Positions 35,258 through 52,634 of a stretch of DNA of 64,000 bases are shown piece by piece. The stretch covers positions 186,001 through 250,000 of the forward strand of contig JADCLS010000003.1 of NCBI GenBank assembly GCA_026702845.1, in the 5' to 3' direction. Origin of the DNA: Candidatus Heimdallarchaeota archaeon. GTDB lineage: Archaea > Asgardarchaeota > Heimdallarchaeia > Heimdallarchaeales > Kariarchaeaceae. Numbering within the stretch: position 1 is the stretch's first letter; every line of letters begins with the position of its first letter. The notes below the pieces were generated by a model. That model ran no database searches. It was given only the letters and a program-made list of their open reading frames with translations, and had not been told where the DNA came from. The translations under genes and the position numbers were made by a program.

Positions 35258-37926
35258 CATACGATATTCTTCTTCCCAGTCGTGCACTATTTATAAAGAA
35301 TAATGTTATTCTGTATTGTGGGTAATATTACTTCCAAAAGAAAAGTAGTACGATTCTGTCAAACGGCACATAATGGATACCTTGGCTAAGAAACCGATGA
35401 AGGGCGTGGCTAGCTGCGATAAGCTCTGGGTAGGTGCAAGCAACCTTCGATCCAGAGATTCCCGAATAGGAATCCAAATTATGTCCAAAAAGCATAATTA
35501 TCCTCATTAGAGGAGGGGAACCCACCGAACGAAAGCATTCAAGTAGGTGGAGGAAAAGAAAGCAATTGCGATTTCCTTAGTAACGGCGAGTGAAACGGAA
35601 TCAGGTCAAACCGAATCTCATATCGGAAGGTATGAGAGATGTGGTGTTGTGGACCAAAATCAATGCTTACCAGGTATAAGTTGAACTCTTTTGGAACTTA
35701 GGACCATAGAGGGTGACAGTCCCGTAAACGTAAACCTGCAGCTATGAGTTTTGGTATCCGGACTAGGGCGCATTGGGAATTGCGTCCAAACTTCGAGGAC
35801 TAACTCGAAAACCTAAATATTCGTCTTAGACCGATAGCGAACTAGTAACGTGAGTGAAAGGTGTAAAGTAGCGGTAAAACGCAGTGTAAAGAGCTTGAAA
35901 TTATGTGCCTAAAGAGTATGATGGCATCAAAGGAGTGAGACTATACGAACCTACAATTGGTGACAATTTAACGGGAGTATAGTTTACCAGTGTCATCGTG
36001 TCAGTCTTGAAACACTGGCCAGGGAGTTTATCTGAGTGGTGAGGCCAAGATCATATCTAAGCCGTAGGGAAACCAATCAGCCCGCAATTTATGAGGGGCG
36101 ACGTCTGTAAGGGCGTGAAATCACTCGGATAAGATGCGAAAGGCGTCGATCTATGCGTGACCAAGGTGAAGCCGTGGGAAACTACGGTGGAGGCCTGAAG
36201 GGTTATTGATATACAACTCATTCCTCTGAGTTACGTATAGTAGTCAAAGGCTAATCTAGGCGCCTGATAACACATTAAAGTCGAAGTGGAGCCGCAGTCC
36301 AGCGTTGAGTTAGTTAGAATTGAAGGTAGAGTACAGACAGTGTTGGAAAGGGGTTTAATAGCCTCGCCGCACCATCTAACTCCGAATGTCAATTCAATGT
36401 AGATCTCAGCAGTTGGGTGGGTCGCCGTAAGGGTGATCACCGAGAAGCGAATAAGCTTGATTGGGGTTAAGGGCCCTAAATGTCAGTTAAGTGTGAAAAC
36501 GAAGGGTGTCGCATCGCTAAGACAATGTGATGGTAAGCTTAGAAACAGCTACCCATTAAAAAGTACGTACTAGTTTACACATCGAGCGATGCGGCCCTGA
36601 AAATGGACGGGGCTAAAACTGACTCCCGATACCTCAAGGCACACCGAATGGTGTGATCCGGTAGACTTTCGATCGGTGAGGATTGAAGCAGGTTGGTGAT
36701 GACCTGTGGACCCCATCGATGCGCAGATCCTGGTAGTAGTAGGCAGAATTTAGGGGTGAGAACCCCCTAGGTCGAAAAGGCAAGGGTTCCTGGGCAACGT
36801 CAATCGGCCCAGGGTAAGTCGATCCTAAGCGTAGCCTTAGTATGGTTATCGCGAAAGGGAAACAGGTTCATATTCCTGTACCACGCTTGGAAATTCGGCA
36901 ACGATAGGAGAGGATCAGACGTTTGTAGATAGGCTTTCCTGTATTGCATAGCAGGTTAAGTATATAATTCCGGGGAGTAGCGTTGTGCTGAGAACCGGAA
37001 GAAATTACGAATAGCCCAGAATTAGTTCTAGGTAAAGTTGATTTCTAAAAACCCATGAAAATGATCCTCCCGTAAATACAGCGTGTTCGTACCTAAACCG
37101 ACACGGGTGTCCTTAGGCTGAGAAAGCTAAGACCTTTTGGAGTAATGCAGGCAAGGGAATTCGGCAAATTAGGCGAGTAACTTCGGGATAATCGCTGCCT
37201 TTACATGTTAACGCGTGCGAAGGTGTCACTAACAAAGGTAACCCGACTGTTTAACAAAAACATAGCAAACTGCTACGCTGAAAAGCTTTGTATAGTTTGT
37301 GAATCCTGCTCCGTGCTCGTAAGTCAAATCCGGGTCCAACCGGGCTAAGCTCGAGTTAACAGCGGGAGTAACCATGACTCTCTTAAGGTAGGCAAATGCC
37401 TTGTCGGATAATTACCGACGTCCATGAAGGGACCAACGAGGTTACCACTGTCCCTGCCTGGAATCCAGTGAACCTACAATCCGGCGAACAGTCCGGAGTG
37501 CCCCGTTGGGAAGAGAAGACCCTGAGAGCTTTACTGTAGCTTCCAGTTGTCCATTCGGTCTATATACAGAGCGTAGTTAGGAGACTTCGACGCCATTTCT
37601 CCGGGAGTGGTTGAGTCAACAATGGAACACTAACTATATAGGCTGGATGGGCTCACCCGTTGCGACGGGGACACCTGGTGGTGGACAGTTTGGCTGGGGC
37701 GGCACGCCTCCGATAAGGAAACAGAGGCGCCCAAAGGTTAGCTCAGGAGGGACAGAAATCCTCCGTAGAGTGCAAGGGCAAAAGCTAGCTTTACTGTGAG
37801 CACGCCAATACTGCTCGCTGTTGAGAAATCAGGGCCTAGCGATCCATCCAATTGCTTTTAGTTGGCGTGGGTGGTGGCAGAAAAGTTACCTCAGGGGTAA
37901 CAGAGTTGTCGCGGGCTAAAGTTCAC

Positions 37927-38208
37927 ACATGTTGTGATTTAGTCGTGTAAATTTAACTTCAGAAATGTCCATTCAGATTATTACTGTAAGCTCATTCAAA
38001 TCACGGTCTGGTATCTATTCCAAAGGTAAAGGAAGAAGAATATCCATCCAGAAACTCACACTGTATGAGGGGTAAAACCCGATGACATACAGATGGTTTT
38101 GGATCCATTCAAATGTTCTCTTTCTTGACCCAAAGATAGAACCGACCAAAAAAATGGCTGCAGTTGATCGACAAATCACTTTATGAGTTGCGACTCAACA
38201 TGGGACGA
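37927..38208 (+). other. BHB intron in 23S rRNA, helix 89 loop
   Basis: The peptidyl-transferase region reads GTCGCGGGCTAAAGTTCAC, is interrupted for 282 bases, and resumes ATTGACCCCGCGGC. Joined, the H89 loop reads AGTTCACATTGACC, the same length as the conserved AGTTCATATYGACC. The boundaries form a BHB: central helix GTTC (37921-37924) with GGAC (38203-38206), bulges ACA (37925-37927) and GAA (38207-38209), inner helix CATGTTG/CAACATG; outer helix is the H89 stem. No homing-endonuclease frame is inside. Confidence 0.92.
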
Positions 38209-38489
38209 ATTGACCCCGCGGCTTGCTTCCTCGATGTCGGCTCTTCCTCGCTTGGTGTTGCACAAGGCACCTAGAGTAGGGTTGTTCGCCCGTTAATAGG
38301 GAACGTGAGCTGGGTTCAGACCGTCGTGAGACAGGTTGGTTTCTATCTAACGGGGCTGTTGGATAATTGTAAGCAGAATGACCTCAGTACGAGAGGAACG
38401 GGTTGTTGTCGCCTCTGGTGTACCGGTTGTCTTGCAAGGCATTGCCGGGTAGCTACGCGGTTTCAAATAAGAGCTGAATGCATCTAAGC

Positions 38490-38652
38490 TCGAAGTTGAT
38501 CTTGAAAAGAATTATCCATTCTGTAATAGCAGATTAACTATCTCCCTCATATCCAATGAGGTGTAGGTATTTTTTCGATCGGGGACTGGTGACAGTAACC
38601 GAGATCTATTATGGACGAGGACATGGCAAAAAGAGCCGTTTGAAAGAAGTGG
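38490..38652 (+). other. Expansion segment near the 23S 3' end (ES39-like)
   Basis: Between GCATCTAAGCTCGAAG and GGGGTGTACGCGTTGAGC there are about 165 bases, against about 85 in the Escherichia coli counterpart. The extra sequence lies in domain VI at the position of ES39, which is known to be enlarged in Asgard archaea. It holds local hairpins such as CCTCAT/ATGAGG. Part of the mature rRNA, not an intron, as no BHB frames it. Confidence 0.5.
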
Positions 38653-38804
38653 GGTGTACGCGTTGAGCTTCGGCGAAATGTTTAGCCCACACTCACTTAC
38701 GTCCAAGGCGTTTCGTGCGAAATTCCTGCGGAAGTAATACCTAGAACAATACAGGAGACGCAACAGCGAGGATGAAGGTATCGTTTGTTTAATGTATGGT
38801 GATC

Positions 38805-39835: not shown

Positions 39836-39950
39836 AGCGGAATTGCCTAGCCTGGCCAACGGCGACAGACTCAAGATATATATGAATTTCATATACGTAT
39901 AAGGCATCTGTTCCTATAGAGGTTCGTGGGTTCGAATCCCACTTCCGCTA
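39836..39950 (+). tRNA. tRNA-Leu (anticodon CAA) with a 30-nt intron
   Basis: Acceptor AGCGGAA/TTCCGCT, D stem GCC/GGC, anticodon stem ACAGA/TCTGT, long variable arm TCCTATAGAGGTTC (class II) and T arm GTGGG-TTCGAAT-CCCAC. Intron 39876-39905 at position 37/38; spliced loop CTCAAGA, anticodon CAA. The BHB is relaxed: central CTCA/TAAG has one mismatch, bulges AGA and GCA, inner hairpin TATATG/CATATA. Eight T residues follow the gene. Confidence 0.93.
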
Positions 39951-52298: not shown

Positions 52299-52508
52299 AA
52301 AAAAATGCTTATCCAAAACTCACAACTCACGCCAGAAAATATCAGGGTTCGGGATGTTACCTGGTGCTCCCTCTCGCTATGACCGGCTTCATGAGCCAGC
52401 GTGCCGGAGTTCCCAATCGATCGCTCAGATTAGTACAATCCTAGTCGCAGAAAGGCTTAACTTTCCTGTTTACTGGAATAGTTAGTAGTTGTGGATAAGC
52501 ATTTTTTT
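52299..52508 (-). repeat. Inverted-repeat stalk enclosing the permuted 5S rRNA
   Basis: AAAAAAATGCTTATCCA (52299-52315) is the exact complement of 52492-52508, a 17-base perfect arm pair, continuing inward with imperfect pairing (AACT, CCAG blocks) to the BHB at 52340-52347/52462-52468. Together they form a long stalk. On the minus strand the end of the stalk supplies seven T residues (52299-52305) that can terminate transcription. The intergenic span 52244-52634 holds this element and no protein gene. Confidence 0.85.
52341..52462 (-). rRNA. 5S ribosomal RNA, circularly permuted gene
   Basis: Read on the minus strand, the 3' half of 5S comes first (AGTTAAGCCTTTCTGCG, GTACTAATCTGAGCG, GGGAACTCCGGC). 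After a 15-base loop comes the 5' half (GCCGGTCATAGCGAGAGGG, GCACCAGG, ACATCCCGAACCCTG). Helix I CCGGC/GCCGG is closed by that loop; helix II (AGAGGG/CTTTCT), helix III (CAGG/CCTG, 13-nt loop C) and helix IV (CTAATC/GATTGG) all form. A BHB joins the gene's ends: outer CCAGTAAA/TTTTCTGG, central CAGG/CCTG, bulges AAA and ATA. Cuts after the second bulge base release exactly 52341-52462, 122 nt, matching normal 5S size. Confidence 0.88.
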
Positions 52509-52634
52509 CTTGTCAGTCGCTCGTGAGCTTTCCGACAATTCTATGTGAATCTCTGTTCTATTTAAGGTTATATTAAGATAACAGATTAAACAAATCTTTA
52601 AATCTAATAACTTTTCCCCCTTCTTATTAAAAGT

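Follow-up and report, generated by a model that had tools for sequence, protein, structure and literature searches.

A permuted 5S rRNA gene flanked by a bulge-helix-bulge motif in Asgard archaea and its predicted circular product

The 5S rRNA gene in the window analysed here (a stretch of 64,000 nucleotides from a Heimdallarchaeota archaeon) is permuted. On the minus strand, at 52462-52341, the 3' half of 5S is followed by a capped helix I and then by the 5' half, the whole being enclosed by a candidate bulge-helix-bulge (BHB) motif and a 16-bp outer stem. That this is a permuted 5S gene at the sequence level is as good as certain. Its RNA is very probably excised at the BHB and ligated into a covalently closed 5S rRNA, the ligation being predicted from the sequence; that the closed circle is also the final form of 5S is probable as well, with somewhat less confidence. 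The arrangement, regarded at the outset as the oddity of one genome, is instead a widespread Asgard feature, present in 138 of 227 genomes. In the phylum regarded as closest to eukaryotes, most of the genomes sampled appear to rely on tRNA-type splicing to make a universal ribosomal RNA.

The permuted locus in the window

The swapped halves had been proposed from the sequence alone, and both the sequence and the coordinates proved correct on re-reading. The 3' half, encoded first (52394..52461, minus strand), begins with GTTAAGCC at 52461 and runs through helices IV and V to the 3' strand of helix I; the 5' half, encoded second (52341..52388, minus strand), extends from AGCCGGTCATAGCG to CCCGAACCCTGAT. 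Both were aligned with 67 further rows. The native 3' and 5' ends, for which a 15-nt connecting loop had been suggested, are joined more tightly in the folds, by a capped helix I (52382..52400, minus strand) in which GCTGGCT and AGCCGGT form 7 bp around the 5-nt loop CATGA.

The new ends form the BHB described in the sequence-only reading, which is present in the window and was found conserved and tested by swapping flanks in relatives (see below). Strand 1 (52462..52476, minus strand) consists of the outer segment CCAGTAAA, the centre CAGG and the bulge AA^A; strand 2 (52332..52346, minus strand) consists of the centre CCTG, the bulge AT^A and the outer segment TTTTCTGG, the carets marking the predicted cuts. 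The outer helix pairs CCAGTAAA (52476-52469) with TTTTCTGG (52339-52332) with one mismatch, the centre pairs CAGG (52468-52465) with CCTG (52346-52343), the bulges are AAA (52464-52462) and ATA (52342-52340), and the inner helix is GTT/AAC. A competing partner of the same CCTG is the helix III 5' strand CAGG at 52360..52363 (minus strand). Cuts between 52463 and 52462 and between 52341 and 52340 would release the segment 52341..52462 (minus strand), and the predicted circle is 122 nt long, as previously proposed. The predicted rejoined junction at 52341/52462 (minus strand) reads ...CGAACCCUGAU/AGUUAAGCC..., and that of copy B in Ca. Heimdallarchaeum endolithica PR6 reads ...CCGAACCUGAA/AGUUAAGCC...; comparison with normal genes confirmed that the window junction is longer by one base.

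A further element, overlooked previously, is the 16-bp outer processing stem (52508-52493 / 52314-52299), whose 5' strand AAAAAAATGCTTATCC (52493..52508, minus strand) and 3' strand GGATAAGCATTTTTTT (52299..52314, minus strand) are fully paired in the minimum-energy fold. The T run in its 3' strand may also serve as a transcription terminator, and TTAAATA at 52559..52565 (minus strand) is a putative archaeal TATA element as read from the sequence. The nearest relative, genome G028 (locus L060), has by eye a matching outer stem with changed bases. At L060:747-772 in the same locus, about 250 nt downstream of its permuted 5S gene, 26 nt match positions 28-53, in the middle of the permuted 5S model.

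A chance origin of the window arrangement is excluded by the fold of the segment (z-score -3.39, with none of 200 shuffles equally stable), by the BHB score, reached by none of 40 shuffled upstream flanks, by the permuted 5S pattern, which had no match in 100 shuffles of the window, and by recurrence of the order in other Asgard genomes. In the minimum-energy fold the outer stem, the outer BHB helix, the CAGG/CCTG centre and the ATA bulge are all formed; the 3-bp inner helix GTT/AAC is absent from it, GTT being paired elsewhere. Closed into a circle, the 122-nt product has a minimum-energy fold (-23.6 kcal/mol) with the canonical 5S helices, and both this fold and the alignment give it helices I to V with a 13-nt loop C at the end of helix III. 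The same 122-mer left linear folds differently, at -31.3 kcal/mol, circular and linear energies not being directly comparable.

The sequence-only reading had also proposed scoring the locus with the 5S covariance model RF00001 in both arrangements. In linear order this model reached 20.2 bits against a cut-off of 38, with the fitted stretch extending into the flank; the rejoined form was scored with an HMM of 14 normal Asgard 5S genes, which gave 36.6 bits for the rejoined window sequence versus 16.0 bits for the unjoined one. Other Rfam matches in the window (McaS, LPR69, ceN54 and TMV_UPD-PK3) were under their own cut-offs and were taken as chance. An organelle origin of the window was rejected, as it carries an archaeal 23S gene and its closest relatives belong to the phylum of Ca. 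Heimdallarchaeum.

Distribution among Asgard genomes

Scanning one genome per species with a DNA pattern for the swapped order yielded a sole matching record, the complete genome of PR6, with two matches; this pattern demands exact consensus words absent from many Asgard relatives and says little on other phyla. PR6, which belongs to the Asgard phylum (PMC8813620), has a chromosome that was assembled from Nanopore and Illumina reads and deposited as complete, and RF00001 finds in this genome no 5S over the cut-off. The 2022 PR6 paper states that Heimdallarchaeum 5S genes could not be predicted (PMC8813620), and a permuted gene would explain such an earlier failure to find 5S.

Two covariance models were then searched within the Asgard phylum: R1, built on the window gene and both copies of PR6, and R2, a wider model of the swapped order with 68 aligned rows. 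At E <= 0.01, R1 matched 55 of the 58 genomes of the PR6 class and 93/227 genomes of the phylum, some of the weak matches being half-matches to normal genes (those in G177 and G179 were rejected as permuted genes for this reason). R2 matched 169/227 genomes at E <= 0.01, and 138/227 were counted as permuted at E <= 1.0e-7; matches above this threshold resemble half-matches to genes in normal order, and as they start at 2.0e-6 the separation is narrow. Genomes for 129 of the 138 were fetched and parsed. The search of related genomes for the same order, as the sequence-only reading had advised, found it in nearly all of the class and in much of the phylum, and a one-off arrangement is rejected. 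A model of the swapped order provides a practical means of finding 5S genes in Asgard genomes.

RF00001 scores above its cut-off in 64/227 genomes, 59 without and 5 with a permuted gene, and 30/227 have neither. The remaining 133/138 swapped-gene genomes show no normal 5S above the Rfam cut-off among the candidates scored, at most 15 per genome (50 in the class); the absence holds at this sensitivity, for genomes whose completeness is not given. The idea of a normal 5S hidden in the carriers was rejected after inspection of each of the five exceptions at the same number of candidates per genome. Three of their matches (in G036, G110 and G134) look bacterial or otherwise foreign by eye, and the match in G025 overlaps the permuted copy of that genome. 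The fifth, in G008:C117, has normal order with an intron-like insert and lies on a 9-kb contig, a possible contamination.

Multiple permuted matches, four and five, are found in G025 and G027 (L100, L108, L178-L183), several of them at the ends of contigs, where dispersed near-identical repeats would be expected to lie. By SRP54 the nearest genome to the window is G028, with 84% identity, of the same class as PR6. A midpoint-rooted tree of this one protein, covering 70/227 genomes and the window, places the permuted state in each of the three deepest groups and the normal order at several places within one of them. A permuted first state needs 9 changes on this tree (at least 6 forced by supported branches) and a normal one needs 6 (at least 5), and the tree does not decide between the two.

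Bulge-helix-bulge and rejoined junctions in relatives

The flanks of the permuted genes were tested in 127/136 loci, 9 being omitted for short flanks, with the BHB centre fixed next to GTTAAG; loci L128, L132, L109, L067 and L111, which are of normal order or cut by contig ends, were left out of the BHB work. Paired with their own flanks, 63/127 loci form an outer helix of at least 5 bp, versus 3.5% of 14,856 pairings of unlike flanks. With the strand-2 bulge set at 3 nt, 63 loci reach such a helix; set at 4 nt, 27 do, and with the sizes 0, 1, 2, 5, 6 and 7 the number is 0-5. When the upstream register was left free, a 3-nt bulge was best in 65.6 of the 127 loci (ties split).

An outer helix of at least 4 bp in the expected register is found in 68/127 loci, and the central pairings among these are diverse: 20 distinct ones are observed, with all four positions paired in 54/68 loci, versus only 13/204 fully paired among the unobserved combinations of the same central strands. 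In 31/68 loci the flanking 4-mer is an exact copy of the helix III 5' strand. This holds for the window and six relatives (G028, G029, G030, G031, G032 and G034), where the copied 4-mer varies between CAGG, CAAG, CGAG, CGGG and CCAG. The suggestion that CCTG pairs either in the BHB or in helix III, in a mutually exclusive manner, is borne out in this group, with the copied 4-mer covarying over five sequences.

In the restricted register the outer helix is shorter than 5 bp in 64/127 loci. In the PR6-like group (G001-G024), 15/21 scored loci have their outer helix about 31 nt further upstream, where a free-register search recovers 11 outer and 4 central pairs; other registers are also needed for the loop-C loci described below, and a further set of loci, in the G093-G157 region of the list, has an outer helix of only 3-4 bp. 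A convincing BHB was not found by either scan in PR6 copy A, G003, G014, G021, G033, G081, G002, G162 and G158. Taken over all loci, a BHB at the ends of the permuted 5S gene is strongly supported by these comparisons. In a group of related loci (L040-L058, from the G003-G024 group), a recurring hairpin, e.g. CATCTGGATGCGTTCCAGATG, lies upstream of GTTAAG between the outer BHB (TCAG/CTGA) and 5S; it is flanked by pairing of the CCTG/CGGG type and is perhaps a further intron.

For the product, we applied a uniform rule, cutting two bases into each bulge and joining the ends, and measured the spacing from CCGAAC to GTTAAG in the 68 loci with an outer helix of at least 4 bp, the other 59/127 standing outside this count. 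The rejoined spacing is 12 nt in 58/68 loci, 13 nt in 7 (including the window), 14 nt in 2 and undefined in 1. Normal Asgard 5S genes have a spacing of 12 nt in 14 cases out of 14 (12 by regular expression and 2 by eye). The HMM of these 14 genes gives the rejoined sequences a median of 56.5 bits versus 24.3 bits unjoined.

Some permuted genes carry an insert in loop C. In each of the 16 such loci chosen by eye (L158, L161, L164 and L171 among them), removal of a 30-31-nt BHB intron candidate leaves CAUCYGAA/CCCRG, the candidates having been found with a score that carried a bonus for the canonical product; they would mean two splicing events per 5S. In five loci (G099, G118, G122, G124 and G125) the break point itself lies within loop C. 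Each of the five has a BHB candidate restoring a normal loop C, and in 4/5 another candidate has a longer outer helix. Finally, the normal-order gene at G008:C117:8277-8414 (minus strand; L134) has by eye, at the loop-B site where other genomes are broken, 23 extra nucleotides bordered by CACG/CGTG and by bulges of 3 nt; their removal would leave normal spacing. This gene looks like a missing link between normal and permuted 5S, from a contig that may be a contaminant. For studying the origin of permuted RNA genes there is thus a natural series, which runs from normal genes through a normal-order gene interrupted by an intron-like insert at the site where others are permuted, to permuted genes, permuted genes with a second intron, and genes with a moved break point.

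Predicted processing into a circular 5S rRNA

In the pathway that we propose, the flanking CAGG of the transcript would hold CCTG off helix III until each 3-nt bulge is cut after its second base, a step likely to be carried out by the tRNA-splicing endonuclease. The two ends would then be sealed, likely by the ligase RtcB, to give a covalently closed 5S rRNA in which the partner of CCTG would be the internal CAGG of helix III, and this circle would persist in the ribosome. PF01974, the splicing-endonuclease domain, occurs in 226/227 genomes and RtcB (PF01139) in 202/227 at E <= 1e-20. At this threshold RtcB was not found in 25/227 genomes, including the carriers G045, G048, G049, G002 and G032, the first of which has 5S and SRP54 on one 1.39-Mb contig. 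Some RtcB matches (in G028, G077, G078, G079 and G160) have one in-frame stop, TGA or TAA.

The circle might be an intermediate only, later opened again in the loop of helix I to yield a linear 5S of the usual kind, just as permuted tRNAs become linear and as circular intermediates of archaeal rRNA have been believed to be re-linearized (PMC7758197, PMC12918454). The helix I hairpin was detected in 125/136 loci, the search missing it in 11, and 99 of the 125 have a 4-nt loop, UUCG in 44 and of the UNCG kind in 72. Such caps leave no linker to remove, which argues against a linker excised later as in permuted tRNAs. With a short loop linking the native ends in most relatives, re-opening at helix I looks unlikely, and circular 23S rRNA has been reported inside archaeal ribosomes (PMC12918454).

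We consider it less likely still, and quite improbable, that the permuted RNA is trimmed but never ligated and functions in linear form, with its new ends between helices III and II. Mature permuted 5S RNAs of organelles, including mitochondria, are linear. Organelles do contain permuted 5S molecules (Valach 2014, cited by PMC10085705), and the sealed helix I alone would suffice for a usable linear permutant; the genomes in which RtcB is undetected (25/227) and the carriers without a convincing BHB also fit this explanation. However, it leaves unexplained why the 3-nt/4-bp/3-nt geometry is kept in flanks that vary between lineages, why the rejoined cuts have normal spacing in 58/68 loci, and why the loop-C introns and the loop-C break points rejoin to normal sequence. 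Finally, it is hardly credible that the locus is a decayed or decoy copy, or an artefact of assembly, while the genuine 5S gene lies at another place in the genome: a second copy is conceivable in the window's genome, known here from the window alone, but the same order recurs in 138/227 genomes, including the complete PR6 genome (Nanopore and Illumina), where RF00001 has no match over the cut-off, and the helices show compensatory changes.

Excision and ligation of the permuted RNA into a circle has its closest mechanistic parallel in the SRP RNA of Thermoproteus tenax and T. uzoniensis, which is permuted and circularized (Plagens et al. 2015, PMC4731332). In both cases an archaeal permuted gene has a BHB at the junction of leader and trailer, the tRNA-splicing endonuclease is the cutting enzyme there and the likely one here, with RtcB as the proposed ligase, the new ends lie near a functional loop, and a normal gene had previously not been found. 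The Thermoproteus case differs in concerning 7S rather than 5S RNA and two species rather than 138/227 genomes of one phylum, and in that its circle and cleavage are experimental, whereas those considered here are predicted from sequence (PMC4731332).

The sequence-only reading knew of no established permuted 5S gene. Such genes are already known from organelles: 5S is listed among natural circular permutations with reference to Valach 2014 (PMC10085705; the work is also cited in PMC9576764). According to these citing papers the organelle genes share the swapped 5S halves, unlike the present ones in being organellar rather than archaeal. In the open-licence PMC literature we found no report of permuted archaeal 5S, circular 5S or 5S introns, in the parts of these texts that were available. 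Within that literature, an archaeal permuted 5S gene flanked by a BHB has no earlier record that we could find.

Two further systems are comparable. Archaeal permuted tRNA genes have a BHB at their new ends. As in the permuted tRNA genes of algae and archaea (PMC3218864, PMC7758197), the 3' half of 5S is encoded first and tRNA-splicing enzymes are likely to act on it; unlike in those tRNAs, whose native ends are regenerated, the native ends of 5S are sealed by a short loop. Archaeal 16S and 23S pre-rRNAs are cut out by EndA at a BHB and closed by RtcB, the route proposed here for 5S, but from genes that, unlike these 5S genes, are in normal order (PMC12918454, PMC7758197); such excision and circularization is said to concern 16S and 23S 'but not 5S rRNAs' (PMC12918454).

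Extended to the phylum, the proposal would be that most Asgard archaea, including the Heimdallarchaeum class, in which 55/58 genomes carry the permuted gene, use a circular spliced 5S in their ribosomes, that the break point can move and that normal order occurs in several separate lineages, so that the lineage from which eukaryotes arose may once have had a circular 5S; we regard the chances for and against this extended reading as evenly balanced.

The 23S gene of the window (35348-38718) sits inside the best BHB candidate of a scan (35309-35326 and 38739-38756, plus strand), with an 11-bp outer helix TTCTGTATTGT/ACAATACAGGA, the centre GGGT/ACCT, the bulges AAT and AGA, and a 9-bp inner helix. 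It predicts a circle of about 3.4 kb, and the same route therefore probably handles 23S in the window. A tRNA gene at 39836-39950 (plus strand, 115 nt), matched by Rfam and missed by ARAGORN, has by eye an apparent intron and a Leu(CAA)-like anticodon.
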